The notes under the pieces are model-generated. The model saw only the letters and a program-made list of their open reading frames with translations. It made no database searches and was not told where the DNA came from. A stretch of DNA of 64,000 nucleotides from NCBI GenBank assembly GCA_013112585.1, contig JABFGH010000024.1, positions 1 through 64,000 of the forward strand, given 5' to 3'. This DNA comes from Ignavibacteriota bacterium. GTDB taxonomy: Bacteria; Bacteroidota; Ignavibacteria; Ignavibacteriales; Melioribacteraceae. A program made the translations under genes and the position numbers. This document shows, piece after piece, positions 8,123 to 29,644 of this stretch (the stretch's first letter is position 1; each line of letters starts with the position of its first letter).

Positions 8123-9106
8123 CTATTCATAATTGATAAACTCTTCAATATCTGCCTTAAAGCTTTTGAATAAATAATTAACTATTCCATGGTATTTTGA
8201 ATAAAACTCATCGTTCCGAATCGACTTATCAACATCATTCATATAAGAAAACAAACTTCCCTTCATTCCCCCATTTTTTAAGTCTAATGAAACTTGATAA
8301 AACGTATTAGCAATAAGTTCGCATTCTTCCTCATTTAACTTATTCGTGGAACAATATTTTGTTTTCAATTTTTCTTCAACATCTAGTAAGCATTTCTTCA
8401 AAACATTGTTCAAATCAATTTCCTGTTCACAAATTGGATGAACATTATTTGTGATTTCAATACCGCCGGCGTAAAGTACTTTTATTCTATTAACAAGAAT
8501 GTTAACCGGAATTGCAGGGAAATAAATTGTATGAGAAGCGATAAAGTTAAAAAGTTCTTCGAGTAATTTACTTCGTTTTTTATAAAATATTGCGGCGGGC
8601 AATTCATTAAAGTCATCGTAATTAATTACAGGGGCAAATATTTCATCCGCGGAACCCCGTACAAAATAAGCTTTACCGAAAAACGTCTGTTTCTTATAAA
8701 CCTCTCCATCAATACAATTCATTAAAGTTTTATGAATTTTATTGAAGATAGGATCACGCTCCTTTAAAACTTTAGCCATTCTTTGTTCTACTCTGCTCCA
8801 TACTAATCGGCTTAGGAAAAAACGAGCATCATTTTCAGTTAAAATTTTCGAGTTCCAATGATTGTAAGAGTTGATGATGTGAATTGTACCATGTTCGTTT
8901 TGAATGAATAATGGAACAATTGCATCTGAGGCGACATCATCAATATTATCGTTCCATCTATTTTTTGAACAAAATTTATCGGAGTGAACTTTGGCTATAT
9001 AACCGCATGCAATTTTTAGGCATAACGAATATAAAACTTTTATATCCGCATAAGAGAGGGTTTTTGTATCAACGTTTATATTACTAAAAATTTTAAGGAG
9101 ATTCAT
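8123..9106 (-). CDS. Sigma-region-2-like protein, function uncertain
   Basis: 327 residues, no signal peptide. Residues about 20-75 contain a helical segment ending IDDVASDAIVPLF. This resembles the region 2 helix of sigma-70/ECF factors, where an ED(L/V)xQDxFxxL(W/F) pattern sits. About 30 residues later comes FFLSRLVWSRVEQRM and then ERDP, also seen in divergent sigma-like proteins. I cannot see a confident region 4 helix-turn-helix in the C-terminal half, so it may be degenerate or a different family. It precedes small protein 1 in the same direction. It is a candidate reader of the island motif; this is inference from position and weak resemblance. Confidence 0.45.
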   Translation of the reverse strand: MNLLKIFSNINVDTKTLSYADIKVLYSLCLKIACGYIAKVHSDKFCSKNRWNDNIDDVASDAIVPLFIQNEHGTIHIINSYNHWNSKILTENDARFFLSRLVWSRVEQRMAKVLKERDPIFNKIHKTLMNCIDGEVYKKQTFFGKAYFVRGSADEIFAPVINYDDFNELPAAIFYKKRSKLLEELFNFIASHTIYFPAIPVNILVNRIKVLYAGGIEITNNVHPICEQEIDLNNVLKKCLLDVEEKLKTKYCSTNKLNEEECELIANTFYQVSLDLKNGGMKGSLFSYMNDVDKSIRNDEFYSKYHGIVNYLFKSFKADIEEFINYE

Positions 9107-9348
9107 TTCCTGTTCAATTGTCGTTTAATTATTTACCGGCTTGAATATAACAATGTTCTTTAATTAAATAAACATTTATTTTAAATTTGAATGAAAAAAT
9201 TAAAGGGAAAAGTGAAAAGGAAAAAGGAAAAAGTATAAATTAAAAAATAGAATCATGATTTGGCTTCTTGGAGAGTTGGAGGGAAATAGTTTTAAAAATG
9301 GGAAATAATTGAAGAGTAAAATCACTCGAGCATTCAGTAATAAATACT
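9107..9348 (+). other. Spacer with purine-rich tract
   Basis: This is the upstream region of the sigma-like gene (minus strand). It includes a purine-rich run of AAAGGG/AAAAGG words at about 9202-9232 on the plus strand. The island motif is not present here, and no gene is visible. Confidence 0.4.
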
Positions 9349-9970: not shown

Positions 9971-9977
9971 CTGAACT

Positions 9978-12131
9978 CTAATGTTGTTTTTTATTTTCTA
10001 TACTAATATTCCTCTCAATCACTTCTTCTTTTTCCGGAAACATTTGAACGAATTCTTTTCCATTCCATCTTTGAATTTGCTTTAATAGTGTGTTTCTAAA
10101 TTCTTTTGTATCCGTAAGTGGATATTGTAACCTGCCTGACTTTACAAGTCTGTCTCGTTCGATTGCTGCTGCATCGCCAATTACAAGTTGCGTTTCATTA
10201 AAATCAGTAGAAAATCTTAAACTGTAGCTAAAGTGATTACCATAATAATCTTTCGGATGGGATTCAATAACACCAACCGAAATAACTTTATTCTCGTAGA
10301 GAAGGTGCGGCGCCCAGAGCGATGTATTATATTTAGGATAGACCAATTCACAATAATCACTTTTCGGCAGTAAAAAATAATGTTCAAATTCGGCAATCGG
10401 GAAATCAAGTATTTTGTAATCTTCGATTGCCGGACTTGTACCGTATAATTTATCTAACTCAATTACAAAAAATACTGCCCCTCTATATCCGTTAGAAACA
10501 GCATTGCATAATAATTCCAATCTGCCATCGTTATCAATATCATTAACCGTAATTCCTGTTAAGTGCCCCGAATGAACAAATGGTTTTCCTTCAAGTTGAA
10601 AAGTTGATAGGTTTAATCTTAGTATGAAACTCGGATAGTAGCTTTCGTGATTTGCAATCAGTAAAGCAATCGGTCCATTTTTAGTGAAAATTATTTCCTC
10701 AATAAAATAAATTGAGTACCGATTGGTAAACTTTTCATAAGATGTTTGAACTTCATAATTGAAATTGAATTCATTTAAAACATTCCCTCTATCATCATAA
10801 AGTAAAAGTTTATATATATGCTCTTTACTTGCTCTTGCTATTAACACTTCATTAGTACCGTCATTATCAACATCAATAATTCTTGTATGCCTTTTTATCA
10901 TTTTATTTTTGTTATTATCTAATAAAGTATAATCTTCAATGGTGGAAATACTCCAAAGAATTTTACCATACTTATTTTTGATATGATATTCATGATTGTA
11001 GCTATCAACTATCGAGGGATTGCTATCGGTGCTTATGAAAATTAGGACGGTGAGTGCAGTAACCAGCAAAATGAGCAAAAAGAGAGCTGCCTTATTTTGA
11101 ATAATTTTTTTTGAACTCCAAAATAATAATGACTGTTTTTTTAATTCAACCAGATCCCGCCGATTGAATATATCACTAATTTTTGTAACCGGAATAATCT
11201 CAAGCTTTCTTAATGGATACAGCTCTTTAAGCTCATTGAACGCAGCGTCAGCAAAAACTTTATCCTCATCTGCAATAACAAAAATATCTGCCGTTGAGTA
11301 AAAAACTGTTTTTACTTTTTTCTGAATTATTTCTTTAGAAACAGGATTTACTTTTCCATTGGAATTGATACCCCCGGTAGTAACAATATTGCCTTTTATT
11401 CTTACTAACTCTCTCAAGTTATAAAATTTTATCAACTCTTGAATAAACCCTATAGTTAACGCTATCCCTAAAGATTCGCCTTCATAAATACCATACCTTT
11501 TATCAAATTGAATTACAACCTCATGACTTTGAATTTTATTTCGCGATGATTTTTTAATAAAGTCCATTGCATAATTCCAAGAAAGACGAATCTGATTTTT
11601 TAATTGCACATCAATTTTACCAACACTTGGTACAACAATAAAATTGTCTTGTTCACTTCCAATGTTTTTTCTTAGGTAGATGGATAACCTTTCAAGAAAA
11701 CCATATTCAGTATTACTCTGCGGTGTTTTTTCTAATACCGGAAATAGAATTTCACTTTTTATAATTAATTTTTGCGCTCCTCCTTCCAATTTTAATTTTA
11801 TATCTGATATCTTACTTCTTAATTTTTCGGCACAACTATTTAATTCTGTTCTATAATTTTTAAATACATAAGTTGATTTTAATTTTTCAGCAGTCGCAAT
11901 TAAATTATCCATCTCTTTCGGCATTAGCCCAATTGGATCAAGTTCTGCAAGAAGCTGCAAATACTGATCAATGTATTCATCGAAATAAGCAGTAAGCATT
12001 TGTGCATTATTAAAGGAAAGAATTGTTGAGAGGTATTCGTTTAAAATAAAAAGTAACCGCCTGCTTGAATAATCCTGATTCTTAATTTCAATTATTTTTG
12101 TGCGGTATTTTTCAAGTTCTAAAATATCCAT
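9978..12131 (-). CDS. Lon-like protease domain / TM / FG-GAP membrane protein, paralogue 1
   Basis: 717 residues in three parts. Residues 1-125 are helical. Residues about 140-325 resemble the Lon (S16) proteolytic domain: IYEGES220LGIALTIGF matches the Lon nucleophile segment DGPSAG. IVTTGG and K271-K272 follow, placed within one residue of the Lon catalytic Lys relative to the TG strand. A membrane span at 348-367 is preceded by many Lys/Arg, putting the N-terminal part in the cytoplasm. The outer part has a VDNDGTNEVLIA-type and a DNDGRLELL FG-GAP/VCBS-like calcium-loop motif and ends in a conserved QRWNGKEFVQMFP block. It overlaps the end of paralogue 2 (TAATG), so the two are cotranscribed. 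I know of no characterised protein with this design; a membrane sensor-protease is inferred. Confidence 0.75.
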   Translation of the reverse strand: MDILELEKYRTKIIEIKNQDYSSRRLLFILNEYLSTILSFNNAQMLTAYFDEYIDQYLQLLAELDPIGLMPKEMDNLIATAEKLKSTYVFKNYRTELNSCAEKLRSKISDIKLKLEGGAQKLIIKSEILFPVLEKTPQSNTEYGFLERLSIYLRKNIGSEQDNFIVVPSVGKIDVQLKNQIRLSWNYAMDFIKKSSRNKIQSHEVVIQFDKRYGIYEGESLGIALTIGFIQELIKFYNLRELVRIKGNIVTTGGINSNGKVNPVSKEIIQKKVKTVFYSTADIFVIADEDKVFADAAFNELKELYPLRKLEIIPVTKISDIFNRRDLVELKKQSLLFWSSKKIIQNKAALFLLILLVTALTVLIFISTDSNPSIVDSYNHEYHIKNKYGKILWSISTIEDYTLLDNNKNKMIKRHTRIIDVDNDGTNEVLIARASKEHIYKLLLYDDRGNVLNEFNFNYEVQTSYEKFTNRYSIYFIEEIIFTKNGPIALLIANHESYYPSFILRLNLSTFQLEGKPFVHSGHLTGITVNDIDNDGRLELLCNAVSNGYRGAVFFVIELDKLYGTSPAIEDYKILDFPIAEFEHYFLLPKSDYCELVYPKYNTSLWAPHLLYENKVISVGVIESHPKDYYGNHFSYSLRFSTDFNETQLVIGDAAAIERDRLVKSGRLQYPLTDTKEFRNTLLKQIQRWNGKEFVQMFPEKEEVIERNISIENKKQH

Positions 12132-14233
12132 TAATTTGAAGTTGAATCAGGTGGAAACATTTGAACAAATTCTTTTCCATTCCATTTTTGTAATTGCCTT
12201 TTTAATATTTCCCGGTATTCACGGGTATCAGCATACGGCTTCTTTAATGCCCCGGCATTAACTAATTTATCTCTTTGAATAGCAAAGTCGTCATTAATTA
12301 CTATTTCAATGTCGTTCAAAGGCAAAGAGAAATTATACTGAATGCTTTGCGGTCTTTTATCTGTCATTAGCCCGCTTTCTATAGTTGATACAGTAATATA
12401 ATTTTCCTTTTTATTATTAGAGGGAGGATAAATAACATGATTGTATTTTGGATAGTGATGCTTGCCGTAATCCGACATTGGAATTAAAACATACCACTCA
12501 AACTCAGCTATTGATTTATTTTTAAATCTGTACCCTTTTGGTGCTGGAGCTGTTCCGATAAGCTTATCATATTCAATTGAAAAATATGCAACACATTTAT
12601 ATCCATTTGAAATAGCCAACCCGACGAATTCTAAATTGCCGTCATTATCAATATCCTCAATCAGAGAGCCGGCAATGCCACCCGGATGCCAAAATATGAA
12701 ATCTGTTATTTCGCCGGTTTCAGCATTCAGTTTAAGTACCGCATTTGGATAGTAGCTTGCATGCTGAGTAATTGCAACCACTTCTTTGTAAGCAGGTTTG
12801 TCAAAAATTCCAACAACTGTATGAAACTGGTGTTCATTAGAAAAAACCTCGCTATCGGATTCAATTTTCGATCTAAATTTATAGCGCCATATTTCATTGC
12901 CCGTACAATCCAGTTTGAATAGATCCCTTGAGTTATTTATTCCGCATATATAAATGCTGTTTTCATTTAAATTATCACCGGTATCTATTTTAAAATATTT
13001 TTTATGATAATTTGAATTGAACATAGTTTCTATGTTATTATTTGCCGGAAAAATATCCCACAATACTTTTCCATATTTATTTTTTGCGTATGCTCTACTG
13101 TTTTTAAACTCTAGATCAACCGGAATGTTATCAATATCTTTTATAAAAAAGTAACTTGAAATAATTGCCAAAACCAGTAAAGATATTACTGCTGTTTTAT
13201 TTTTAAAAGTTTTTTTAGCTGACCATTTAACAAAGTTCTGTTTTTTAATTTCAACCAGGTTGCGGCGGCTGATTAAATCTTCAATTGATGAAACACCGAC
13301 AATTGTCAGTTTTCTATTTGGATATTCTTTATTAAGATTATTTAACCCGGCATCAGCAAATTGCTTATCTTTTTCGGGAACAATAAATATTTCTGCTTCC
13401 GAAAAAAATACTACTTTTAGCTTTTTCTCAATTACTGATTTTGATACCGATCCGACTTCGCCCGTTCCAGAAACACTTCCGGTTGAAACAATATTGCCTT
13501 TAACATTTACAAGCTCGCGCAAATTATGAAACTTTACTAACTCTTGAATAAACCCGATAGTTAAAGCAATTCCCAAGGAATCGCCTTCATAGATTCCGTA
13601 TTTCTTATCAAATTGAATTACAACTTCATAAAATTGATTTTTGTTTTTTTTTGAATTAAGAACTAGTGAATTTGAATAATCCCACGATATATTTATCTGT
13701 CGCTTCAACCTTTCATCTAATTGCCCAAAACTGGGTACAATAATAAATTTATCTTTTATCAAACCCGGTTTATATTTTATTGAAATTGAAATCCTTTCGA
13801 GAAAGCCAAAATCTTCAATGTCGGATTCGCTTTTTTCTAAAATTGGGAAAGTAATTTCTTTTGTAATCTCATCGGAAGATTTTCCCTCAAGTTTAGATTT
13901 TATTTTATCTATACGTTCACTTAAAGAGTTAATTGCTATTTCTATTTTATTACTTTGACTGCTGAAAGCATTTGTCGTTTGCAGTCGTTTCAAATTAATT
14001 AAAAGATTTTCTGAATCAATAATATTAGTGCCAGCCACATCAATAGTTTGCAAGAGCATCAAATATTCATTCAGGTATTCAGAAAAGTAGGCTATTATTA
14101 ATCCGGGCTGGTTTACTTTAAGTAATTTTGAAAGGAATTGATTTAAGTAGGACAGATTTAATCTTGGTGAGTTTTCATTATTTTTGTTAGATAAAAATTC
14201 ATTTCTATATTTCTCTAGCTCTGTAAGTTTCAT
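12131..14233 (-). CDS. Lon-like protease domain / TM / FG-GAP membrane protein, paralogue 2
   Basis: 700 residues with the same design as paralogue 1: helical N-terminus, and a Lon-like domain with S219 in YEGDSLGIALTIGF, STGSVSGTGEVGSV, and K270-K271. One membrane span lies at about 347-365, then an extracytoplasmic propeller-like part with DIDNDGNLEF, and the C-terminal block QKWNGKEFVQMFP. It is the first gene of a two-gene minus-strand operon; its TAA overlaps the ATG of paralogue 1. The upstream region (14234-14340) lacks the shared island motif. Similarity to paralogue 1 is spread over the whole length, so the pair arose by tandem duplication. Catalysis is untested; the Ser and Lys positions are kept. 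Confidence 0.75.
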   Translation of the reverse strand: MKLTELEKYRNEFLSNKNNENSPRLNLSYLNQFLSKLLKVNQPGLIIAYFSEYLNEYLMLLQTIDVAGTNIIDSENLLINLKRLQTTNAFSSQSNKIEIAINSLSERIDKIKSKLEGKSSDEITKEITFPILEKSESDIEDFGFLERISISIKYKPGLIKDKFIIVPSFGQLDERLKRQINISWDYSNSLVLNSKKNKNQFYEVVIQFDKKYGIYEGDSLGIALTIGFIQELVKFHNLRELVNVKGNIVSTGSVSGTGEVGSVSKSVIEKKLKVVFFSEAEIFIVPEKDKQFADAGLNNLNKEYPNRKLTIVGVSSIEDLISRRNLVEIKKQNFVKWSAKKTFKNKTAVISLLVLAIISSYFFIKDIDNIPVDLEFKNSRAYAKNKYGKVLWDIFPANNNIETMFNSNYHKKYFKIDTGDNLNENSIYICGINNSRDLFKLDCTGNEIWRYKFRSKIESDSEVFSNEHQFHTVVGIFDKPAYKEVVAITQHASYYPNAVLKLNAETGEITDFIFWHPGGIAGSLIEDIDNDGNLEFVGLAISNGYKCVAYFSIEYDKLIGTAPAPKGYRFKNKSIAEFEWYVLIPMSDYGKHHYPKYNHVIYPPSNNKKENYITVSTIESGLMTDKRPQSIQYNFSLPLNDIEIVINDDFAIQRDKLVNAGALKKPYADTREYREILKRQLQKWNGKEFVQMFPPDSTSN

Positions 14234-14348
14234 ACTCGCATTTGTGAGATTTAGAAAAAAGTATATTAGTGCTTTGATAAATATAAGAAAATCAAATTAT
14301 AATCTGAATAAAGTGCTTTTGGGTGAAAAGGAGTTAAGATCATTTTTT
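14234..14348 (+). other. Upstream region of the paralogue 2/1 operon
   Basis: About 115 bp between the operon start and the repeat array. It presumably holds the operon promoter on the minus strand, but no box can be assigned with confidence. The island motif is not found. Confidence 0.3.
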
Positions 14349-14691
14349 GAACCACGCCGTAGTTCCCGCCCATTCGGCATTCACTCTTTTCTATGGATTC
14401 CATCCATAGTTATTTACCTTAAAGTACTTTGTACTTTTAAAAAACATTTTAATGAATCCAATATTTTATTTTTTCGACTGCAACGCAGTCAAAGACAAAT
14501 AGCCCCGAATGAAATTCGGGGATGATATGATAAATATATTTTCCAACTACGAAGTGGTTGAAAGTATTTTTTCATTACGGCTTCAATTTAATAATCATTC
14601 TTGAACTACTCCGTAGTTCCACCCACACTGGTTTTCTCTCTTTTCTATGGATTCCATCCATAGTTATTTACGTTAAAGTACTTCGTACTTT
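14349..14691 (+). repeat. Multi-hairpin repeat array B2 (left of transposase)
   Basis: One complete unit and half of a second. The hairpins are GAACCAC-GCC-GTAGTTC (14349-14365), CTATGGAT-TCC-ATCCATAG (14391-14409), AAAGTAC-TTT-GTACTTT (14422-14438), GACTG-CAACG-CAGTC (14476-14490), CCCCGAAT-GAA-ATTCGGGG (14503-14521) and CAACTAC-GAA-GTGGTTG (14544-14560). The next half unit has hairpins at 14603-14619, 14645-14663 and 14675-14691. The unit order matches arrays B1 and B3. The array ends about 85 bp from the transposase stop. Confidence 0.85.
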
Positions 14692-14776
14692 CGATTTACA
14701 ATATCTTACAAATGACTCCGTTCCATTCTAATTACATTTTCCTCAGATAATACAATCTACCTTTTTCTATATTACA

Positions 14777-15223
14777 CTAAACCAAATACTTCTCGTCAAA
14801 TTCGATATTGAATTCTTCTAAAATATTTTTATACTCCTCTGCAAAACTTACATTCCTATGATGTTCTTTTTGATTTTTTATATACTCTATAAGTTTTTCC
14901 TTTGAATCAATTGAATAGGTAAAAGCTCCATAACCAATTTGCCATCCATTAAATAACGGAAATGCTTTTTCTTCTTTGATCATTTGTGAAGTTGATAATT
15001 TTATATCCTTTATTAAATCTGCCAATGCTACTGTGGGATGTAGATGCGTTAAAATATGAATATGATCCTCCATTCCGTTTATTCTGTACAGATGACATTT
15101 GTTGTTTTTTAAAATACCCCAGATGTATTTATATAATGTTGGCTGTTTTTCCTCAGTAAGGGTTTTTACTCTATCTTTTGTTGAAAATATAATTTGATAT
15201 AGAATTTTTGTGTACGTTGACAT
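14777..15223 (-). CDS. IS200-type Y1 (HUH) transposase, TnpA/RAYT-like
   Basis: 148 residues from the ATG at 15221-15223, chosen because GGAGG lies seven bases before it; an in-frame ATG 15 bp upstream is less likely. The HUH motif is H54-I-H56 in MEDHIHIL. The catalytic tyrosine is probably Y114 in LIEYIKNQ, with Q118, followed by EHHR. The WQIGYGAFTYS segment is typical of this family. These enzymes nick and join single-stranded DNA at hairpin ends. No TnpB gene is nearby. The gene sits inside a field of multi-hairpin repeats (B2 and B3), which suggests a REP-associated transposase that mobilises, or once mobilised, these repeats. The family is firm; the link to the repeats is inferred from position. 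Confidence 0.9.
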   Translation of the reverse strand: MSTYTKILYQIIFSTKDRVKTLTEEKQPTLYKYIWGILKNNKCHLYRINGMEDHIHILTHLHPTVALADLIKDIKLSTSQMIKEEKAFPLFNGWQIGYGAFTYSIDSKEKLIEYIKNQKEHHRNVSFAEEYKNILEEFNIEFDEKYLV

Positions 15224-15391
15224 AATTGCCTCCATCAATTTTGAATATTAAAATTTAGTTCATTTTTTTAATTACTTCATAGTTGTTTCTGTTAGAGGTC
15301 ATTATATAATCTTTGAGTAACTCCAAAGTTTCTGATCTGCAAATACTTACTACTATTGAGATAATTTTACAATCTTAATTTTCGCTTTTTT
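15224..15391 (+). repeat. Degraded repeat unit next to the transposase
   Basis: Weak versions of the hairpins are visible (ACTTCATAGTTG near 15285 and GAGTAACTCCAAAGTTT near 15334), in the order expected for family B but with broken stems. It probably marks the upstream edge of the transposon unit. Confidence 0.4.
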
Positions 15392-15861
15392 GACTGCAGC
15401 GCAGTCAAAGACAAATAGCCCCGAATGAAATTCGGGGATGATATGATAAATATATTTTCCAACTACGGAGTAGTTGAAGGTACATTTTAATTCGCAGATT
15501 CAATTTAATATCTATTCTTGAACTACTCCGTAGTTCCCACCCATTCGGCATTCTCTCTTTCTATGGATTTCATCCATAGCTATTAACCTTGAAGTACTTC
15601 GTACTTTTGAAAAACAATTTGGCGTTTTCTATTTTTTAGTTTTCCGACTGCAGCGCAGTCAAAGACAAATAGCCTCGAATGAAATTCGGGGATAATATGA
15701 CAAACGTATTTTCCAACTACGGAGTAGTTGAAGGTACATTTTAATTCGTAAATTCAATTTATTATTTATTCTTGAACTGCTCCGTAGTTCCACCCACACC
15801 GGTTTTCTCTCTTTTCTATGGATTCCATCCATAGCTATTTACCTTAAAGTACTTTGTACTT
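15392..15861 (+). repeat. Multi-hairpin repeat array B3 (right of transposase)
   Basis: Nearly two units. Unit one: GACTG-CAGCG-CAGTC (15392-15406), CCCCGAAT-GAA-ATTCGGGG (15419-15437), CAACTAC-GGA-GTAGTTG (15460-15476), GAACTAC-TCC-GTAGTTC (15520-15536), CTATGGAT-TTC-ATCCATAG (15561-15579) and a GTACTTCGTAC hairpin (15591-15607). The series repeats at 15646-15660, near 15673-15691, 15714-15730, 15773-15790, 15816-15834 and 15846-15861. Changes in a loop or stem are often balanced so that the hairpin is kept. Confidence 0.85.
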
Positions 15862-15895
15862 CCCCGTGATGCTGATCTCAATTTTTAAAATACAG

Positions 15896-18052
15896 TTATT
15901 TGTTTTGTATGCTGATAGTTCCCTCATTCATTTCCACATTTTGCGGGAACATTTGAACAAATTCTTTTCCATTCCATCTTTGAATATTTCTCTGCAATTT
16001 TTCTTTGTATTCACTTGTTCCAGTTAAAGGCATATCCAACTTGCTGCTTCTCACAAGCGAATCTCTTTTGTAAACAAAGCCCTCGGGAATCGTAATTCGA
16101 ACATCTGAAAAATCAAAGGTAAAATCGTAATATATTTCTAATGGATAATTTCTATATCCAACAATATCCTCAATTGTTTTAATGTCAATTAGTTGTTTCG
16201 TTTCTTCAATATGCGGAGAATTAACTGTTGAGTTATATTTTTCAGTTAAGAAAAAACTTAGATCAGTTTTTGGCAGCAAAATATATTGATCAAAATCAGC
16301 AACTTGCTGATTTAAAAAAGTATAATTTTTGATCGTTGGTGCTGTGCCATTTAGTTTATCATATTCAATGGAAAACACAAAAGCTGATTTTTTACCATTT
16401 GAATTTCCTGCTGCTACTACTTCCAACTTACCATCATTATCAATGTCTTTAACTAATGCACCTTGAATTCCGCCCGGATGCCAAAACGAATCATCAATTA
16501 GTTCACCGGTAGCCGCATTAATTTTTAGTATCGGGTTGGGGTAATGATGTGCTTCTTGGGCAGCAACTATCAGTTCATTTACTCCATTATTTTTAATAAT
16601 ATCTACTATCATATGAATTCTATAAAAATCTGAGAACTTTTCTTTTGGAGTTTCAACAATTCTTCGGTAATCAAACTTCCACTTTAAACTACCTGTAGAG
16701 TTAAGGCAAAATAAAGTTCCGCTCCGCCCAACTTCGCATAAGAATAACTCATTTTTACCATCTCCATCAGTATCAAATATTTTAAATTTATTCTTAAAAT
16801 AATGCGACGGCGCATACTCTTTGCCGGGAACAGGGAACTCATTTATCTCCCATAAAGTTTTACCAAGTTTGTTTTTAACAAAACCGATTCCAGGCACACT
16901 TTGGAAATCAATTCCAACCGGATTATCATCAAAATCTTTTACCAAAAAATAGCTTGAAGTAAAAACTAATAAAACTAAAAGTGCGATTGATAACTTATTC
17001 TTTAAAGTTTTTTTCGCACCCCATTTAATAATGTTTTGTTTTTTGATACTCACTAAACTTCTTCTATCAATTAAATCTGATATAATTGGAATGCCAATAA
17101 TTTCAAGCTCTCTTTTGGGATATTTTTTATGAAGTAAGTTTATTCTTTTAGTAGCAGTTGCTAAATCCGAAAATGGGATAATAAATCTTTGAACTTTTGA
17201 ATAAAAAACTGCCTCAACTTTTTTCTCTATCGATTCAACTCCAACTGAATCAATTTCTCCTTTTTCATTTACGCTTCCGGTAGATGCAATATTGCTTCCA
17301 AGCGTAACAACATCGCGCAAATTGTAAAATCGAATTAATTCTTGAATAAACCCGATAGTTAATGCAATGCCGAATGAACCCCCTTCATAAATGCCGTACT
17401 TTTTATTGAATCTTATTACTACTTCGTGAAAATGCTTTGATGCTTTAATTGAACCGGCAAAATAATTTTTAGCGAAATCCCATGAGCTTTGTATTTGTTG
17501 ATTCAACCGGTTATCACTCTGCCCGAAATCCGGCACTACAACAAAAGTATCTTCCGTTAATGAGATACGCTTTGAAATACTGATTGTGATAGTTTCAAGA
17601 AACCCGAAAAAGTATTTATCATCATCTGATTTTTCTAAAACCGGAAATAGCAGACAATTGCCGGTAGAACTTTCAGAAGTTCCGCCCTCCAATATTTTTT
17701 TAAGCTCATCAAATTGATTTTTAATCTTCGTAATTGAAAAACTTAACTCATTGTTAACAGCTTCTTCGTTTACAGTTTTTAAGTATTTCTCAGCAATGCT
17801 ATAAATTGATTCGGTCTGTAAAGGATCGATCCCGAAGGGTGAATAATTTTTTAGCAATGTAGAATATTTTGGTAGGAACTCTGTAAAGTAAGCTGATAGT
17901 AAGGAATTGTTGTTAGCGGTAAGTAAATGTGATAAAAAAATAGTAAGCTCAATTAATTGAAAATTCGGTGAGCCGAACTCTGCAAGAACTTGATTGAGAT
18001 GCTGTCTCCTTTCTTCTAAAGCTGCTAAATTATTTATTGCCAAACTCCCCAC
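15896..18052 (-). CDS. Lon-like protease domain / TM / FG-GAP membrane protein, paralogue 3
   Basis: 718 residues read from a GTG start (18050-18052); TTG codons a little further in are possible alternatives. Same design as its paralogues: S226 in IYEGGSFGIALTIGF, ASTGSVNEKGEIDSV, K277-K278, and a membrane span at about 354-371 after a Lys-rich stretch. Then come the motifs DTDGDGKNELFL and DIDNDGKLEVV and the C-terminal QRWNGKEFVQMFP. In this copy the residue just before SIEKK is Glu where paralogues 1 and 2 have Lys. The KK pair is the conserved one, which makes it the better candidate for the catalytic Lys. It lies between repeat arrays B3 and A2 and appears to be a single-gene unit. Confidence 0.75.
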   Translation of the reverse strand: MGSLAINNLAALEERRQHLNQVLAEFGSPNFQLIELTIFLSHLLTANNNSLLSAYFTEFLPKYSTLLKNYSPFGIDPLQTESIYSIAEKYLKTVNEEAVNNELSFSITKIKNQFDELKKILEGGTSESSTGNCLLFPVLEKSDDDKYFFGFLETITISISKRISLTEDTFVVVPDFGQSDNRLNQQIQSSWDFAKNYFAGSIKASKHFHEVVIRFNKKYGIYEGGSFGIALTIGFIQELIRFYNLRDVVTLGSNIASTGSVNEKGEIDSVGVESIEKKVEAVFYSKVQRFIIPFSDLATATKRINLLHKKYPKRELEIIGIPIISDLIDRRSLVSIKKQNIIKWGAKKTLKNKLSIALLVLLVFTSSYFLVKDFDDNPVGIDFQSVPGIGFVKNKLGKTLWEINEFPVPGKEYAPSHYFKNKFKIFDTDGDGKNELFLCEVGRSGTLFCLNSTGSLKWKFDYRRIVETPKEKFSDFYRIHMIVDIIKNNGVNELIVAAQEAHHYPNPILKINAATGELIDDSFWHPGGIQGALVKDIDNDGKLEVVAAGNSNGKKSAFVFSIEYDKLNGTAPTIKNYTFLNQQVADFDQYILLPKTDLSFFLTEKYNSTVNSPHIEETKQLIDIKTIEDIVGYRNYPLEIYYDFTFDFSDVRITIPEGFVYKRDSLVRSSKLDMPLTGTSEYKEKLQRNIQRWNGKEFVQMFPQNVEMNEGTISIQNK

Positions 18053-18177
18053 TCCACATTTAAACCAAAAATAATATAAAAAAATTGGTGTGGTTTTTCA
18101 AAAATGAATGGTTGTTTCAGGACCTCATTTTCACAAATTCATTTGTATTAATTTCCTCATTTTAATTACCTTTGACA
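18053..18177 (+). other. Upstream region of paralogue 3
   Basis: It contains the promoter region of the minus-strand Lon-like gene, but no box is assigned with confidence. A TTTTTGAAAAACC stretch resembles the first block of the island motif, but the second block is missing. Confidence 0.3.
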
Positions 18178-18337
18178 ATACCCGGTTGCTTCGGTACACC
18201 CCGCTTAGCGGGGTTACTCAGCCACCTTGGTTGTACCGCAACTTTAACTTTACCGGTTATCGAGTAGTCCTGCCTTTGGGGACGTATCGAGATAAAGGTT
18301 ATCGAGTATTCCCGCTAAGCGGAATGTAGCGAGATAA
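18178..18337 (+). repeat. Dispersed repeat family A, copy 2
   Basis: It starts with CGGTTGCTTCGGTAC, a CCCCGCTTAGCGGGG hairpin and TTACTCAGCCACC. Then come alternating GGTTATCGAGTA and GACGTATCGAGATA pieces and another CCCGCTAAGCGG hairpin. The first 44 bases match copy 3 at 19795 nearly perfectly, and copy 1 (4119-4325) carries the same pieces inverted. Confidence 0.75.
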
Positions 18338-18393
18338 CGTGAATGTATTGCAGAGATTTTGGAGGCTTGAAAAACTTACCAAGTCGTTTTAAA

Positions 18394-19542
18394 CTAAGCG
18401 GCTAATTCTGCAAGCCAGTCGGAGAGTTTTAGTAGTTTTATATTTCGCTTTTCTTCTTCCTGGTGCAAATTATAAACAAGCTGTACAGATTCAACTTCAG
18501 GGTAGCGTGCTGAAAAATATAGCAGTGGAGCGGATAACTGCTTACTGCTTAATTTTACTTCTAAAAATTGAAGTGGTTTATCATCTTTCGCAACCACAAA
18601 ATCAATTTCCTTTCCATCTTTTGTTCGTAGATAATTCAAACTATAGTTAGCACCCTTGGCATCATACAGATATTGTACATGCTTTAACAAACAAACAGCT
18701 GTTGTATTTTCAAGCTTAATTCCGGCATCACCCTTAATATAAGAGGTATTGTAAAAATAAATTTTAGGTTCCTTTAGGATGGAACGTGCAATATTTTTAT
18801 GGAGAGGACGGACAAGAAAAATAACATAAAGACTTTCTAAAATATTGATATATTTTTTAATTGTATTCGGCGATGCCTGCAAATCTTCAGCAATTGAATT
18901 TATTGAAAGTGGTGAACCAACTTTCAATCTTAAAACTTCCACAAGGGTTTTCATTGTATTAATTTCGTTAATGCGTGAAAACTCTAATATATCTTCTCTT
19001 ATTAAGTCTGTATAATATTGATTTTTCCATCTTTCAGCTTCAATTACTGCGTCTTCAGCCGGTAAGTTTAGGCTTTGCAGAATAGGTTCCGGAAAACCAC
19101 CGAAATTATTTAGTTTATCAACTGCCTCATAGGCCGTAATTTTAGATGCTAACTCTTTTACCGAAAAAGGATTTAGACGATGATGAAAATACCTTCCGGC
19201 TAATGAATCTCCGCTTTGACGAAATGTATCTAATCTAGCGCTTCCGGTAATTAAAATTGCCTGACCGCTCTTTTTAGAATCATAGACACCTTTTAAGTAA
19301 TTTTTCCAATTCTTCATTTTGTGGATCTCATCAAATATTAATATGTCGGAATTTTGAACCCAACTCATCTCATTAATAATGTTCCTATCGGTAAAATTAT
19401 CAAAATTTAGATACTGTGGATTTTGGAATTTACCCATTATTTGTTTTGCAAGATAAGTTTTTCCAACTTGCCGCGGTCCGGTTATAAAAACCATCTTTTT
19501 TGAAAGGTCTTTTAATATTTGATTAAATAAATATCTTTGCAT
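18394..19542 (-). CDS. AAA ATPase with C-terminal DUF4143-type domain
   Basis: 382 residues from the ATG at 19540-19542; a TTG two codons upstream is also possible. Walker A GPRQVGKT (22-29), Walker B ILIFDEIH with D71-E72, and a sensor-like ILITGSARLD are visible. The C-terminal half has a helix-turn-helix-like stretch (SINSIAEDLQASPNTIKKYI) and a nuclease-fold-like KDGKEIDFVVAKDDK..LEVK, the D-ExK pattern of DUF4143 proteins. These standalone ATPases are very common in Bacteroidota. Their role is unknown, and mobile or toxin-antitoxin-like behaviour has been suggested. The gene stands alone between two copies of repeat A. Two 23-base direct repeats lie just upstream. Confidence 0.85.
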   Translation of the reverse strand: MQRYLFNQILKDLSKKMVFITGPRQVGKTYLAKQIMGKFQNPQYLNFDNFTDRNIINEMSWVQNSDILIFDEIHKMKNWKNYLKGVYDSKKSGQAILITGSARLDTFRQSGDSLAGRYFHHRLNPFSVKELASKITAYEAVDKLNNFGGFPEPILQSLNLPAEDAVIEAERWKNQYYTDLIREDILEFSRINEINTMKTLVEVLRLKVGSPLSINSIAEDLQASPNTIKKYINILESLYVIFLVRPLHKNIARSILKEPKIYFYNTSYIKGDAGIKLENTTAVCLLKHVQYLYDAKGANYSLNYLRTKDGKEIDFVVAKDDKPLQFLEVKLSSKQLSAPLLYFSARYPEVESVQLVYNLHQEEEKRNIKLLKLSDWLAELAA

Positions 19543-19551
19543 ACGCAATTA

Positions 19552-19606
19552 TTGCAATAAAATGCAAAATAGTCAAGACTTTTTTGCAAAGTAGTGCATA
19601 ATAGTC
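19552..19606 (-). promoter_or_regulatory. Two 23-bp direct repeats upstream of the AAA/DUF4143 gene
   Basis: On the minus strand two copies of GACTATT-T/A-TGCA...TTGCAA (19584-19606 and 19552-19574) match at 18 of 23 positions. They are repeated with a 32-bp period, about three helical turns. They end ten bases before the ATG. This looks like an operator, perhaps for autoregulation through the gene's own helix-turn-helix-like segment. Confidence 0.5.
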
Positions 19607-19614
19607 GGATATGT

Positions 19615-19728
19615 GCGAAACAACAATTCTCAGAACTTAACTCTTCTTCTAAATCAAGTTTCTAATAGAAATAGTTTAGCCATTAATCAATTTCTTCCCC
19701 TTGTTATAATTAGCTGCAAGAAATCTCG
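19615..19728 (+). pseudogene. 5' fragment of an ECF sigma factor gene (TIGR02999-like)
   Basis: The plus strand reads NNSQNLTLLLNQ, then VSNRNSLAINQFLPLV. This matches the N-terminus of the intact sigma factor at 53119 (NNSQNITILLNQ, VSNGNTLAINQILPLV) at most positions. A one-base loss (GTTTAT to GTTAT) then shifts the frame, and a few codons later the similarity stops at the edge of repeat-A-like sequence. So only about 38 codons of the gene remain, without regions 2.2 to 4. It is a dead copy. Confidence 0.8.
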
Positions 19729-20049
19729 ATATATCCACCTTACACATTGAAGCTCAATCAGCGGCATTAAAAATAAAATAGGTTCAACGATTTCCGGTTG
19801 CTTCGGTACACCCCGCTTAGCGGGGTTACTCAGCCATCTTGGTTGAGTGAAAGTTTTAAATTTGTAGGTCATCGAGTAGTCCCGCATTTGAGGACGTATC
19901 GAGATGCCGGTCATCGAGTACTCCCGTTTTTCAGGACGTATCGAGATACGGTTATCGAGTAGCCCCGCCTTTAAGGGACTTATCGAGATAACATTGCAGA
20001 ATTGGAAAACGTTTGATCAAAAACCTGCTGAACCAGTTTCTTTCAACAA
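19729..20049 (+). repeat. Dispersed repeat family A, copy 3, with spacer
   Basis: The core spans 19793-19993: CGGTTGCTTCGG, the CCCCGCTTAGCGGGG hairpin and TTACTCAGCCATC. It is followed by three rounds of ATCGAGTA(G/C)(T/C)CCCG...GACGTATCGAGAT. Longer than copy 2 by one round. It directly adjoins the sigma pseudogene on its left. Confidence 0.75.
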
Positions 20050-20574
20050 TCAACTAATCAACTCAACTCCATTTATTTCAATACTCTTATCGATTGTTGC
20101 GGATTTATTACTTCCCTTAACTTTAATAATTTTACCGCCAGGTTTTAGTTTTAGAGATATGGTCTCAAAATGACTGTTATCATTTTTAAATATATAAATT
20201 TTCCGATCAGCTTTTGTTGTAATAATTTTAATAATTAAATCATTTACTTCATCTTTATATGTATCTACAACAACTTCAGTGTTTTCTTCCGGACCATCTG
20301 CTGCAAGTTTTACAATATTTGTAATAGAATATTCGACATTAAATTCATACTGTAAATCATTCTCTATTTTATATTGCTGAATTACAGCAGTAAATGCTTT
20401 TTCATCTAAAGCTTTATGGTTATTATAATTATTTATTATTGCTTGAGCAGAGCTGCAGATTAAAATTTGTTCGTTAAGAAAATGTTTATAGATATTCAGT
20501 TGTTTCATTTTCCAACTGCCCAATTCATTTTGGCAGCAAACATAGTTAAAAATATCTCTTTCTGTAATATTCAT
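20050..20574 (-). CDS. Small paralogous protein 2 of the accessory island, function unknown
   Basis: 174 residues, no signal peptide. Paralogue of the protein at 7532-8059, sharing the opening MNITERDIFNYV, the LAADGPE block, VDTYKDE, and IYIFKNDNSHFE followed by SLKLKPGGK. The family is unknown to me. The conserved first 12 residues and the beta-rich C-terminal half are the best markers. It has its own copy of the island motif 32 bp upstream (20607-20635), nearly the same distance as for small protein 1, and the leader contains an AAGGAG-like site. Its gene directly follows the PEGA-TonB gene in the same direction. Confidence 0.75.
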   Translation of the reverse strand: MNITERDIFNYVCCQNELGSWKMKQLNIYKHFLNEQILICSSAQAIINNYNNHKALDEKAFTAVIQQYKIENDLQYEFNVEYSITNIVKLAADGPEENTEVVVDTYKDEVNDLIIKIITTKADRKIYIFKNDNSHFETISLKLKPGGKIIKVKGSNKSATIDKSIEINGVELIS

Positions 20575-20606
20575 ATCTTACCTCGTTTGGTCTCCTTAAA
20601 CTAAAG

Positions 20607-20635
20607 GTAGTACACAAACCGGAATTTTTGAAAAA
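20607..20635 (-). promoter_or_regulatory. Shared bipartite island motif, copy 2
   Basis: Minus strand: TTTTTCAAAAA, nine bases, GTGTACTAC, ending 32 bp before the ATG of small protein 2. The first block is identical to copy 1 over eleven bases, although the intervening nine bases differ completely. This argues that the two blocks are under selection. Confidence 0.65.
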
Positions 20636-20644
20636 CTCAAATAG

Positions 20645-21565
20645 TTAGTCCAACTTAAATAAAATTGGGATTGAAACTTGAACATTTACAGGTTTCCCTT
20701 TTTGTCTGCCCGGAATAAACTTTGCATTTTTTACAGCACTCATTGCAGCTTCATCACATCCCGCTCCAATTCCTTTTATTAACTCTACTTTATTTACTTT
20801 ACCCTCTTTGTCAACAAATGCTTTAATAAAAACCTTTCCCTTTATTCCTGCTCTTTTAGCAATTTCCGGATAAGATACTCTTGCCTGTAAAGAGTCCATT
20901 CCACCAACTGGTTTAGGCATTTCTTCTACTGCAATAAAATATGCCATTTGTGAAAGTTTCTTATCAGCCCATAAATTATTTTCCTCAGCATCTAAATTTC
21001 TATAAGAAACGGAAAATGAATCATTCAAAAAATCAACAAATACTTCTGCTTGCTGAAGATTATTTATTGAAATAATTTTTGAAATTTTCTTCCCTTTGTA
21101 AAAGAAATCCATATCATAAGTTCCTGCGCTTATTTTGGAGGCTTTCCATTTATCAACTATCTTACTTGCATTTATTCCTAATTCATGCACGTAAATTTTA
21201 ATGTCTAAAGGAAGTGACTGTATTTGTAAACTTCCAAATAACTTCTTGTTATTTTTTTTAGTACGCTTTTCATTTCGTTTGGTTTGAAATAGTTCCATGT
21301 AATGCACATGAACTTTTGAGGGCTTTACATTAATATAGATCAGTTCCGATTCATACCCACCACCTTTTGCTTCAACTACATGTCTTCCCGCTTCAACATT
21401 GTCTATTAATAGACCGTCATATTTCAAATCTGTGGTACCAACTAACTTTTCATCAAGATAAATAGTTACCCCCGGTTGACATTTAATTTGAATATGACCT
21501 GTTGTTTGAGAATACGTAACTAAATTTGCACAAAGATAAAAGGTAATTAGTATCAGCTTATTCAT
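20645..21565 (-). CDS. Secreted PEGA-domain protein with TonB C-terminal domain
   Basis: 306 residues with a signal peptide (about 1-19). Residues 24-90 resemble a PEGA domain (GVTIYLDEKLVGTT and VEAGRHVVEAKGGGY), and a second related beta segment follows around 110-170. The last 85 residues are a TonB C-terminal domain: YPEIAKRAGIKGKVFIKAFV, then GIGAGCDEAAMSAVKNAKF, PG and PV. TonB domains usually contact TonB boxes of outer-membrane receptors; PEGA domains often bind surface or peptidoglycan components. It lacks the inner-membrane anchor and Pro-rich spacer of a classical TonB. An island motif lies 69 bp upstream. Confidence 0.85.
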   Translation of the reverse strand: MNKLILITFYLCANLVTYSQTTGHIQIKCQPGVTIYLDEKLVGTTDLKYDGLLIDNVEAGRHVVEAKGGGYESELIYINVKPSKVHVHYMELFQTKRNEKRTKKNNKKLFGSLQIQSLPLDIKIYVHELGINASKIVDKWKASKISAGTYDMDFFYKGKKISKIISINNLQQAEVFVDFLNDSFSVSYRNLDAEENNLWADKKLSQMAYFIAVEEMPKPVGGMDSLQARVSYPEIAKRAGIKGKVFIKAFVDKEGKVNKVELIKGIGAGCDEAAMSAVKNAKFIPGRQKGKPVNVQVSIPILFKLD

Positions 21566-21634
21566 TTTTGATCCTTAAAATTTAGTTTGTGTAATAATTA
21601 AATAGTATTAATTCAAATGTTGTTACCTAATTAA

Positions 21635-21663
21635 GTAGTACACTTATTGAGTTTTTTATAATT
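21635..21663 (-). promoter_or_regulatory. Shared bipartite island motif, copy 3
   Basis: Minus strand: AATTATAAAAA (weaker first block), nine bases, GTGTACTAC. It ends 69 bp before the ATG of the PEGA-TonB gene. The second block is identical to that of copy 2. Confidence 0.5.
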
Positions 21664-21735
21664 GATTACAAATTAATTTTAAGTCTTGTGGGATATAGCT
21701 CTCATTAATAGAACTGATATTAACTGAATTGCCTG

Positions 21736-23847
21736 CTAATTTTCTAACATAGAATTTAGTTCAATAAAACTTTTTCCATTCCATGATTTTATTTCTTTAA
21801 ATATTTTTGTGCGATATTCATGAGTATCAGTAAAAGGCTGTTTAAGTTTTCCGTTCTTCACTAGTTCGTCCCTTTTTGCAATAAATAATTCATTGAATAC
21901 AATCTCAACTTTCTTAAAATCAAAGCTGAATCTATATTCTACTACCATCAGATTGTCAATGTTTAAGTAGTCTTCAAGAGTTGAAACTGATATAATCTCG
22001 TCATTTTCAAAAACTTTTGGTGCTTCATAAATAGGGTTTAACCTAGGATAATTTCTTTTTCCTAAATCAGTTCTTGGCAATAACAAATATTTAGTAAAGT
22101 TAGCAATAGATTTATCGCTGAAAGAAAACTCATCCAAAGTGGGTGCCGACCCTGTTAAACTGTCATAATCAATAGTAAATAAAAAAGCCTTATCGTAGCC
22201 ATATGATATTCCTGAAGCAATCAAATCTAACTGATCATCATTTTTTAGATCAAATATTTCTGCTCCGGTTATATTACCGGCATGATAGAATTTTTTTCCA
22301 AACGGCTCACCTGTTTTCGCATTTACTTTCAGTATAATATTTGGGTAGTAATAATTGTGATTTGCAATAGTAACAATTTCAATAATATCATTATTCTCTA
22401 TTATATCAATAATAGAATTAATGCTGTATCTGTCAGAAAACTTTTGACTCTCTGTTTCAATTTTTTCGTGATGAACATAACTCCAAATCTTATAACCGTT
22501 ATTTGTATAATTGTAAAGTGCTCCTGAAGAATCTACTCTTGTTAAAAATACTTCGTTTTTACCATCGTTGTTAACGTCTTTAATAGCATATAATTTTTTT
22601 GATAATGATGGATACTTTCTATATAACACACCTGATGCTTCAGGTGATTTAATCCAGATTATATTACCGTATTTATTTTTTACGTAAGCTGTTAAGTACG
22701 GAGTTCTATCATTGTTTTCGAACTCGACTGCAGTAGGGTTGTTATCCATATTTCTAAATAGAAAGTATGATGAAAGAATTATGAGTAATGAAAGTAAAAG
22801 CAATGCGAATTTATTTTTTATAATTTTTTTTAAACCCCAATAAATAATATTCTGCTTCTTAATTTCAATTATGTCTCTTCTATTTAAAAGGTCATCAATC
22901 TTTTCAATACCAATAAGCTGAAGTTCTCTTTTTGGAAAGATTGAATTAAGTTCAGCCAATTTCTTTTTCGCATCGGTAATATCTTTATTGGGAATAATAA
23001 ACTTTTTAACTTCTGAATAGAATAGAGTTTCGATTTTCTTTTTAATCACGCCACTAGAAACAGATTTAACTTTTTCATTTTTATCTACACCGCCTGTCGA
23101 TGCAATATTTGACTTTATAAGAACACTTCGTCTTAAATTATAATATTTTATTAATGATTGAATAAATCCAATTGTTAATGCTATACCTAGTGATTCACCA
23201 ACATAAAGTCCGTATTTTTTTTCAAATTGAACAACCACTTTATGAAATTTGTTAATTCGACTATAATGATTAGTTAAATAGTTTTTGGCTATTAGCCATG
23301 AATAATTAATTTGATTTTGCAGGCGATCTTCAATCTCTCCTAAATTTGGAACTACAATAAACTTATCGCCCTCGCTAACCTGTTCAGTAATCGTAATATT
23401 TATCTCTTCAACAAAGCCATACCATTTTTCTAATGCTTCGCAATTTTCGATAATAGGAAATTTAACAGATCCAATTGCTTGCCGATCATTTTGCTCACCT
23501 GCCAATACATTTTTGATATAATCAAAATTTTGATGGATTGACTCAATAACTAAATTAAGTTTGGTACTAGACCCATCATTAAATATTTTTTGATATGATT
23601 CAGCAACACTTAAAATATGCTCTGTTTTATTGGGGGTTATACCGGAAGGTGTGAATTGTTCAAGGAATAATAAATACTTCTTTTGAAATTCTTTAAAAAA
23701 AGCTTCTAATATAAATTTGTCATCCTGGTTTAATAGTAAATGCAGATAATCGGTAAGATAAAACAAATTTGAAATTGGTGAAGAACTTATCTGTAATTGT
23801 TTCTGCAAAGCCTCTCGCTTAGTTTCAATGCAATTGATATTCATCAA
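21736..23847 (-). CDS. Lon-like protease domain / TM / FG-GAP membrane protein, paralogue 4
   Basis: 703 residues, same design as the other three but the most diverged. S219 lies in LYVGESLGIALTIGF, followed by ASTGGVDKNEKVKSV and K269-K271; the membrane span is at about 347-364. The outer part has DVNNDGKNEVFL and DLKNDDQLDLIAS, where the second calcium-loop motif has lost its DG. The C-terminal block is shortened to KSWNGKSFIELN. It is divergent from the protease operon at 23981, with 133 bp between the starts, so the pair may be co-controlled. The ATG used gives a Met-Met start. Confidence 0.75.
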   Translation of the reverse strand: MMNINCIETKREALQKQLQISSSPISNLFYLTDYLHLLLNQDDKFILEAFFKEFQKKYLLFLEQFTPSGITPNKTEHILSVAESYQKIFNDGSSTKLNLVIESIHQNFDYIKNVLAGEQNDRQAIGSVKFPIIENCEALEKWYGFVEEINITITEQVSEGDKFIVVPNLGEIEDRLQNQINYSWLIAKNYLTNHYSRINKFHKVVVQFEKKYGLYVGESLGIALTIGFIQSLIKYYNLRRSVLIKSNIASTGGVDKNEKVKSVSSGVIKKKIETLFYSEVKKFIIPNKDITDAKKKLAELNSIFPKRELQLIGIEKIDDLLNRRDIIEIKKQNIIYWGLKKIIKNKFALLLLSLLIILSSYFLFRNMDNNPTAVEFENNDRTPYLTAYVKNKYGNIIWIKSPEASGVLYRKYPSLSKKLYAIKDVNNDGKNEVFLTRVDSSGALYNYTNNGYKIWSYVHHEKIETESQKFSDRYSINSIIDIIENNDIIEIVTIANHNYYYPNIILKVNAKTGEPFGKKFYHAGNITGAEIFDLKNDDQLDLIASGISYGYDKAFLFTIDYDSLTGSAPTLDEFSFSDKSIANFTKYLLLPRTDLGKRNYPRLNPIYEAPKVFENDEIISVSTLEDYLNIDNLMVVEYRFSFDFKKVEIVFNELFIAKRDELVKNGKLKQPFTDTHEYRTKIFKEIKSWNGKSFIELNSMLEN

Positions 23848-24838: not shown

Positions 24839-24844
24839 TTAATA

Positions 24845-26230: not shown

Positions 26231-26253
26231 AAAATAAAATTTGTGAGAATAAT

Positions 26254-27417: not shown

Positions 27418-27455
27418 ATAAAATAATAATAAGGACTAGAGTGAGAGGTTTAAAA

Positions 27456-28892: not shown

Positions 28893-28910
28893 TAAAAAGC
28901 GAGATTAAAA

Positions 28911-29636: not shown

Positions 29637-29644
29637 GTAAAGCT

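Follow-up and report, generated by a model that had tools for sequence, protein, structure and literature searches.

Lon-type membrane proteins of Ignavibacteriota as candidate sensors for a predicted sigma switch

Background

Four genes in a 64,000-nucleotide stretch of DNA from an Ignavibacteriota bacterium (Melioribacteraceae; assembly GCA_013112585.1, contig JABFGH010000024.1, positions 1-64,000 of the forward strand; hereafter the window) encode proteins, here named LonFG-1 to LonFG-4, that join a Lon-like protease domain to a membrane span and an FG-GAP-like outer domain. This arrangement raises the question of what a membrane-bound Lon domain without an AAA domain would cut, and in response to which signal. 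An earlier note, made from the sequence alone, had read the four as transmembrane sensors relaying an outer signal to a cytoplasmic protease; the S16 domain, the Ser and Lys residues, the lack of an AAA domain, and the topology that it described stand, but it left unlinked the neighbouring genes S and Z, which give the likely pathway. Here we show that LonFG proteins carry an invariant Ser and Lys and recur with S and Z. On balance, we favour the reading that they are membrane sensors controlling a sigma switch, in which S would be the sigma factor and Z its anti-sigma partner, through cleavage of Z.

Methods

The genome containing the window comprises 4.94 Mb in 77 contigs. Homologues were sampled from 395 genomes of one phylum and, since at most two candidates per genome were scored with the sensor profile, LonFG copy numbers are lower bounds. 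Two further loci, L005 (a Melioribacteraceae metagenome-assembled genome) and L006 (an Ignavibacteriae metagenome-assembled genome), came from another collection; G and L numbers denote genomes and loci, respectively. Loci were picked by matches to the sensor or to S, not by Z. The LonFG alignment holds the 46 open reading frames (ORFs) of at least 650 aa, the window's four included, among 68 distinct matching ORFs; L046, whose outer domain is duplicated, and every shorter ORF were omitted. The 46 aligned members are proteins, and are counted separately from the 46 genomes that have a sensor-profile match. Predicted models were built from four sequences for LonFG (mean predicted local distance difference test score, pLDDT, 71) and from three for S (pLDDT 73, mainly helical).

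Results and discussion

Architecture and protease domain of LonFG proteins

All four LonFG genes lie on the minus strand and their products can be aligned over their full length, which bears out the single architecture previously described for them. LonFG-1 (717 aa, 9978..12131) overlaps LonFG-2 (700 aa, 12131..14233) by one base, and is followed by LonFG-3 (718 aa, 15896..18052) and LonFG-4 (703 aa, 21736..23847); LonFG-2, -3, and -4 share 42, 38, and 37% identity with LonFG-1, respectively, in a full-length alignment. A whole-genome search (E <= 0.001) returned no matches besides these four. LonFG-1 consists of N-terminal helices (LonN, residues ~1-118), an S16 domain (~124-330; residues 124-330 correspond to 11142..11762, minus strand), a membrane span (residues 348-366; 11034..11090, minus strand), and an outer FG-GAP-like domain (~370-700).

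Assignment of the protease domain rests on family-level profiles and on the predicted fold. Pfam listed no Lon model for any single LonFG sequence, and the NCBIfam LonB model matched two of the four (E 1.3e-4 and 2.5e-3; residues 187-331 and 201-330) and not the other two. The LonFG family consensus, in turn, matches Pfam Lon_C with an E of 2.8e-8 and 34.0 bits (curated cut-off 21.1), a 33-row LonFG profile matches the Archaeoglobus fulgidus Lon P domain 1z0e (E 1.3e-11), and the predicted fold superposes on the human Lon P domain 6x27_B over 171 residues at 2.8 A (Z 16.7, VIA-align). A library of viral structures gave Lon, WD-repeat, and propeller-like matches only, among the matches listed. 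The S16 fold put forward earlier is thus borne out, and we firmly assign the domain, by profile and model, as a true S16 (Lon) protease domain.

Gly218, Ser220, Thr252, and Lys272 (LonFG-1 numbering) are each invariant in all 46 aligned members, such that none lacks the Ser. In the alignment with 1z0e, EGeS lies over EGDS and GkVlpVdsetikkK over GEVLPVGG--VTQK; the Ser and Lys of 1z0e in these positions are known as the LonB catalytic dyad. Ser220 (codon 11472-11474) and Lys272 (codon 11316-11318) are accordingly aligned in Lon register and constitute the predicted catalytic pair of LonFG-1. The earlier note had reported a conserved KK pair whose Lys falls within one residue of the Lon position. 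The second Lys of that pair, Lys272, is kept in 46/46 members, but the first, Lys271, is Lys in only 9/46, and the spacing claimed was too tight: Lys272 lies 20 residues past the TG threonine and its counterpart in 1z0e 18, because two residues are inserted before the Lys in LonFG.

These residues bear on the possibility, quite improbable in our view, that the Lon domain serves as a scaffold with no catalytic role, binding Z so that the two proteins together would make up a transmembrane anti-sigma sensor in two pieces. Lon-like domains also occur in RadA and ComM, neither of which is known as a protease, ComM itself appears among the LonFG fold matches, and the fused relatives described below suggest that a sensor can work by binding an anti-sigma domain directly. 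However, across 46 divergent members Ser220 and Lys272 stay fixed and the positions around them change, which would not be expected of a domain with a scaffold role only.

No AAA domain was detected in the four LonFG proteins (Pfam, E <= 1), in agreement with the earlier description, and of 60 Pfam families listed for the LonN consensus, the best 25 include no AAA model. LonN is helical in the predicted model and conserved throughout the family; it has a weak match in the PDB to the flagellar chaperone FliS (1orj, E 0.057), which hints that it may be a bundle binding a partner. Pfam FG-GAP_3 matches in these proteins have E values of 2.6e-6 to 0.19, above the cut-off in 1/4, with one weak stretch of FG-GAP repeats or none per protein; the same family was found in 16/25 members of an alignment mixing 18 fused proteins (see below) and 7 free Z. 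One Lon-type protein of at least 1010 aa (L054, genome G180) has a post-span part with no match to the FG-GAP-like outer profile, and the Lon protease module may therefore carry other sensors as well.

Topology was approximated from hydropathy and charge. In every one of the 46 members, the 19-residue segment of highest hydropathy within residues 300-500 averages at least 1.7, and in 46/46 the 25 residues preceding the span are more positively charged than the 25 following it (mean net charge +6.1 vs -0.7). A plain hydropathy scan with a threshold of 1.8 gave one span in each of the window's four LonFG proteins; of the other full-length members, five have an additional hydrophobic stretch and two (L016 and L049) have none that reaches the threshold. 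In related proteins, an anti-sigma-type domain sits on the same N-terminal side of the span as the LonFG protease. Because of the uniform charge bias and the position of this domain in relatives, the protease most probably lies in the cytoplasm and the FG-GAP-like part in the periplasm, which agrees with the orientation given in the earlier note.

Linkage of LonFG with S and Z

A survey of the gene neighbourhoods of homologues, which the earlier note had suggested, revealed that S and Z genes recur beside the sensors. In the window, S (327 aa, 8123..9106, minus strand) is followed by Z-1 (175 aa, 7532..8059, minus strand), and a second Z gene, Z-2 (174 aa, 20050..20574, minus strand), lies in the LonFG-4 cluster with no S adjoining. 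Members of the S family, typically ~335 aa, adjoin two kinds of sensor: LonFG, and proteins of 440-500 aa in which the same outer domain is preceded by ~120 aa with an HLxxCxxC motif instead of the Lon domain (hereafter the fused form, or Z-TM-outer, where TM is the transmembrane span).

Among the 395 genomes, 46 have both a sensor-profile match and S, 6 have S only, none has the sensor only, and 343 have neither; S is thus present in 52/395. The gene following S on the same strand, for 63 S genes encoding more than 250 aa, is a free Z in 38 and a fused Z-TM-outer gene in 18, and the remaining 7 are followed by another gene, an opposite gene, or a contig end, although L050 and L085 do hold a Z ORF there. 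Gene orders include S-Z-LonFG, in which as many as three LonFG are consecutive, LonFG-S-Z in relatives of the window, and S-fused. The window has four LonFG, one S, and two Z; other loci have three and two sensors beside one S. S lies within the fetched stretch in 31/41 Lon-type loci, and no locus among the Lon-type (41) and fused (19) loci holds both forms.

Genomes that appeared to lack LonFG were searched again with the Lon-type profile. In the ten fused-only genomes this returned the fused proteins, two weak outer-domain-like frames of 550-567 aa and, as the only other matches, frames of 796-867 aa, a length usual for ordinary Lon, two of which hold stops or extend further along the profile. 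S and the outer domain therefore exist without LonFG in these ten genomes. Of the six S-only genomes, G183 holds a LonFG relative and G259 a fused form, G108, G254, and G332 have only frames of 844-855 aa resembling ordinary Lon, and G140 has none.

Z is related to ZAS-type anti-sigma domains

Free Z proteins (~170-340 aa) and the N-terminal domain of the fused form match one another's profiles. They differ in retention of the HxxxCxxC motif, which is kept in 18/19 fused proteins vs 9/45 free Z ORFs, the latter including one duplicated locus and three ORFs of 74-76 aa. In 25 aligned members (18 fused, 7 free Z) of the 27 that have HxxxCxxC, His4, His31, Cys35, and Cys38 are invariant; these members were chosen for HxxxCxxC, and His4 was no selection criterion. 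An upstream H or C precedes HxxxCxxC by 24-26 residues in 23/27 and by 18-22 in 4/27. According to excerpts of PMC6432622, the ZAS anti-sigma motif is H/C-X24/25-H-X3-C-X2-C, and since the invariant His4-His31-Cys35-Cys38 set fits this pattern, the fused N-terminal domain is identified by motif as ZAS-type. A profile of the HxxxCxxC members matches the RsiW anti-sigma structure over the same positions 23-61 (E 0.0056), and zf-HC2 is listed for 14/25 members at E <= 1, the best score seen, 19.0 bits, falling below the cut-off of 22.2. Free Z is related to it, often with lost zinc ligands, and Z-1 is best described as a degenerate relative of ZAS-type domains with an additional C-terminal part.

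One motif stands out in free Z, an LAA between the helical part and the next domain, at residues 90-92 of Z-1 (7784..7792, minus strand) and at 20299-20307 in Z-2. It is exact in 27/41 free Z, the third position is Ala in 39/40 that have a letter there, and this third column is the most informative of the Z alignment after the start codon.

Two further observations concern the fused lineage. L046 (genome G200) encodes a fused ZAS-related protein that has two tandem outer domains and does not have HxxxCxxC. An RseA-like AA cut site in the fused spans was also considered; [AVILMFCG]AA is present in 8/19 fused vs 7/44 Lon-type spans, and this suggestive but composition-prone pattern was not used.

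Is S a sigma factor?

Several results count against S being a sigma factor. Of the 44 Pfam families listed for S (41 members, E <= 10), the first 25 include no sigma model, the S profile had no sequence match in the PDB and its consensus none to a sigma factor, and hhalign of S against extracytoplasmic function (ECF) and primary sigma profiles gave 0.1-2.4% probability with no stable register. Foldseek of the S model yielded no match with E under 1, and the structural Z scores of 7-8 given below are, for a helical model of this pLDDT, within the range that the tool flags as possible chance. Sequence-recognisable sigma regions 2 and 4 were accordingly not found in S. An S-ECF register obtained from small ECF sets shifted once the set was enlarged to 32 sequences, and was not used. 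With the 32-sequence set, only 1 of 100 column shuffles for the N-part of S and 2 for the C-part were not outscored, a result that is unusable as homology because both parts align to the same region-4 stretch.

The predicted model gives a different ranking. When Foldseek candidates were aligned with VIA-align, rows 1-4 were sigma chains, as were 18 of 50 rows overall, a count in which the title, letter, or length of a chain in an RNA polymerase complex decided whether it was taken as sigma; row 1, chain 'RPSD' of 9a7s, is presumably SigD. The first two rows superpose poorly (10.8 and 15.6 A). More informative are those in which the N-terminal 117 residues of S align with sigma-S 5ipl over 88 residues at 3.0 A and with sigma-28 1rp3 over 83 residues at 2.8 A (Z 7.4 each); the predicted sigma2-like part covers residues ~13-117. 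Because of this sigma2-like fold ranking and the ZAS-related partner Z, we hold with fair confidence, from model and neighbourhood, that a divergent sigma factor is the likeliest reading of S. The uniformly negative or inconsistent profile tests would be explained if S were another DNA- or RNA-binding regulator and the protease controlled a switch of another kind, a rather doubtful prospect that overlaps the other readings, which differ on the substrate. Against this stand the kinship of its steady partner with ZAS-type anti-sigma domains and the top ranking of sigma2 domains for the N-terminal half of S. No match indicating plasmid carriage of S was found at E <= 1e-5.

Proposed mechanism

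If S is a divergent sigma factor, the components can be assembled into a pathway. The FG-GAP-like domain would sense an envelope or surface signal in the periplasm, and the cytoplasmic AAA-free Lon domain would be activated, probably via oligomerisation or a shift across the single span. The active domain would then cleave the small anti-sigma protein Z, most likely at the LAA-like motif following its helical ZAS-related part. Cleavage there would leave the S-bound N-terminal piece of Z ending in -LAA, a ClpXP-type degron through which it could be removed, and S, once freed, would join RNA polymerase. The ssrA tag likewise ends in LAA, and a ClpX gene was found in the genome. RseA and RsiW pieces are cleared by ClpXP after their own cuts, as described in portions of PMC10202637 and PMC5358783. 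In the fused lineages the sensor would hold the anti-sigma domain directly and use no Lon domain. Since Z is separate in the window type of locus and Lon takes its place on the sensor, action of the protease on Z is the simplest link between the two. Genomes without LonFG are in line with the cut-site idea insofar as Z of G108 reads IQA and the Z ORF of G140 ends at 74 aa.

A number of observations weigh against this pathway. Z-1 and Z-2 of the window do not have the HxxxCxxC zinc motif, and are profile-related to the ligand-bearing Z. In L005, the Z next to LonFG has LDS in place of LAA, and one Z in L132 (G345, the same species as L005) has no LAA motif. G047 (L133), moreover, has S and a free Z with LAA and no LonFG: all 7 of 7 candidates were scored, and apart from the fused form they yielded only a frame of 867 aa, about as long as an ordinary Lon. 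The LAA motif can therefore persist without the protease, and in G047 either another protease serves or LAA has another role; it may be a structural part of the Z C-terminal domain. As for linkage, 10/41 Lon-type loci have no S in the fetched stretch, their genomes holding S elsewhere, and 871 bases separate LonFG-1 from S in the window, such that a single transcript of the two is not certain. This interval (9107-9977) has no ORF of at least 100 aa and may hold the promoter of S-Z.

The same retention of an LAA-bearing Z in G047 would suit a different substrate, namely S itself or other cytoplasmic proteins, in which case the signal would shut the S response down and Z would act as an independent anti-sigma factor. 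S is the most constant partner (46/46 genomes), and Lon can degrade a sigma factor, sigma-T (excerpts of PMC10662116). We judge this unlikely, as S also pairs with the Lon-less fused form (18/63 S genes, with ten genomes showing only that form, and no LonFG, when searched with the Lon-type profile), the tethering of Z is what differs between the two architectures, and the conserved motif sits in Z.

Neighbouring genes bear on the possible output. Type IX sorting-domain genes make up 27/199 genes within two genes of the system vs 15/269 farther away (Fisher p 0.003; genes of at least 150 aa, our own profile grown from six tails with Pfam matches), where the farther genes also comprise all remaining ones of the 64 kb window, and genes sharing a locus are not independent. 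The enrichment gives no more than a hint that the system acts on surface proteins. The same enrichment could point to an envelope quality-control protease with no signalling link, which is very improbable in view of the protease facing the cytoplasm by charge, its lack of an unfoldase, and the co-occurrence with S in 46/46 genomes, which argues for a dedicated pathway.

Cleavage of Z by LonFG could, more tentatively, represent an undescribed transmembrane route to a new sigma family, in which ATP-free LonFG would cut a free ZAS-derived Z at LAA, creating a ClpXP degron in one step without site-1 and site-2 proteases, and in which several paralogous sensors would feed one switch. If so, Lon-type proteases would be direct signal-operated switches beyond CRISPR immunity, regulated intramembrane proteolysis would not be the sole way from an outside signal to anti-sigma proteolysis, and S would add a family of likely sigma factors unrecognised by this Pfam scan. 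The fused and split architectures, standing side by side, make the pathway easily testable.

Other genes in the window

Between LonFG-4 and Z-2 lies a gene for a PEGA-like protein with TonB_C (20645..21565, minus strand). An IS200-like Y1 transposase (14777-15238) separates LonFG-2 from LonFG-3 and may reflect past shuffling within the array of paralogues, and an AAA_14/DUF4143 ATPase (18394-19548) between LonFG-3 and the LonFG-4 cluster is probably unrelated to the system. Beyond LonFG-4, a row of genes at 23981-30676 encodes tetratricopeptide repeat (TPR), papain-like C1, FGE-sulfatase, caspase-like C14 (also a PADLOC caspase match), and TonB proteins. Proteins with type IX sorting tails are encoded at 31099-32553 and 38789-46528, one of them 2579 aa long with PSII_BNR repeats.

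Comparison with known systems

LonFG proteins share the protease fold and Ser-Lys register of LonA and archaeal LonB (MEROPS S16), and differ from them in having no AAA domain, two residues inserted before the Lys, and a span and outer domain after the protease. Like YlbL-type PDZ-Lon proteins and LonC, they have a Lon-type protease domain without a working AAA unfoldase. PDZ-Lon proteins are known, YlbL being membrane-linked, and a Lon-like protease without unfolding activity (LonC) has reportedly been described; to our knowledge, these have a different sensor domain and orientation and no anti-sigma or sigma partner. The earlier note's statement that it knew of no described system of this form was too strong, given PDZ-Lon (YlbL) and CalpL, a sensor-switched AAA-free Lon.

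On the anti-sigma side, RsiW, RslA, and RseA, the last of which does not belong to the ZAS type, are membrane anti-sigma factors under regulated intramembrane proteolysis. The fused form can be compared with them, as it has an RsiW-like layout and ZAS ligands. In the window family, by contrast, the anti-sigma protein is free and the sensor would carry its own cytoplasmic protease rather than rely on site-1 and site-2 cuts. ChrR-type proteins combine ZAS with a C-terminal cupin-like domain, and free Z likewise has N-terminal ZAS-related helices followed by a second domain, although the window's Z proteins have no zinc ligands; we know of no Lon partner of ChrR-type proteins. No prior description of an FG-GAP sensor with a Lon protease or an anti-sigma factor was found in the open-access literature, subscription papers being outside the scope of this search.

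The nearest parallel is CalpL. The system nevertheless does not resemble a CalpL system proper: no SAVED domain was matched in the four LonFG proteins (Pfam, E <= 1), PADLOC had no match on two of the four LonFG, S, and Z-1 (CRISPR genes were not searched for), and no CalpL or SAVED chain is named among 26 LonFG sequence matches. CalpL is also not among the best 60 of 97 profile matches or the 50 VIA rows listed, neither of which proves anything. As far as excerpts of PMC12751052 and PMC11417357 describe it, the AAA-free Lon domain of CalpL is activated by a fused sensor domain and cuts the anti-sigma factor CalpT, such that CalpS is released, with a ClpXP degron step proposed; PMC11229360 is also cited among the literature on known relatives. 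The likeness to CalpL-CalpT-CalpS would extend to all three members, in that an AAA-free Lon is fused to a sensor, a partner that is anti-sigma or, for Z, putatively so accompanies it, and a sigma factor, predicted in the case of S, is the third. The systems differ in that CalpL senses cyclic tetra-adenylate (cA4) via SAVED whereas LonFG has an FG-GAP-like outer domain behind a membrane span, and in that S is not detectable as an ECF sigma factor. With genes for Lon, a ZAS-related Z, and S present together, LonFG-Z-S looks, by analogy, like an envelope-sensing counterpart of the CalpL cascade.

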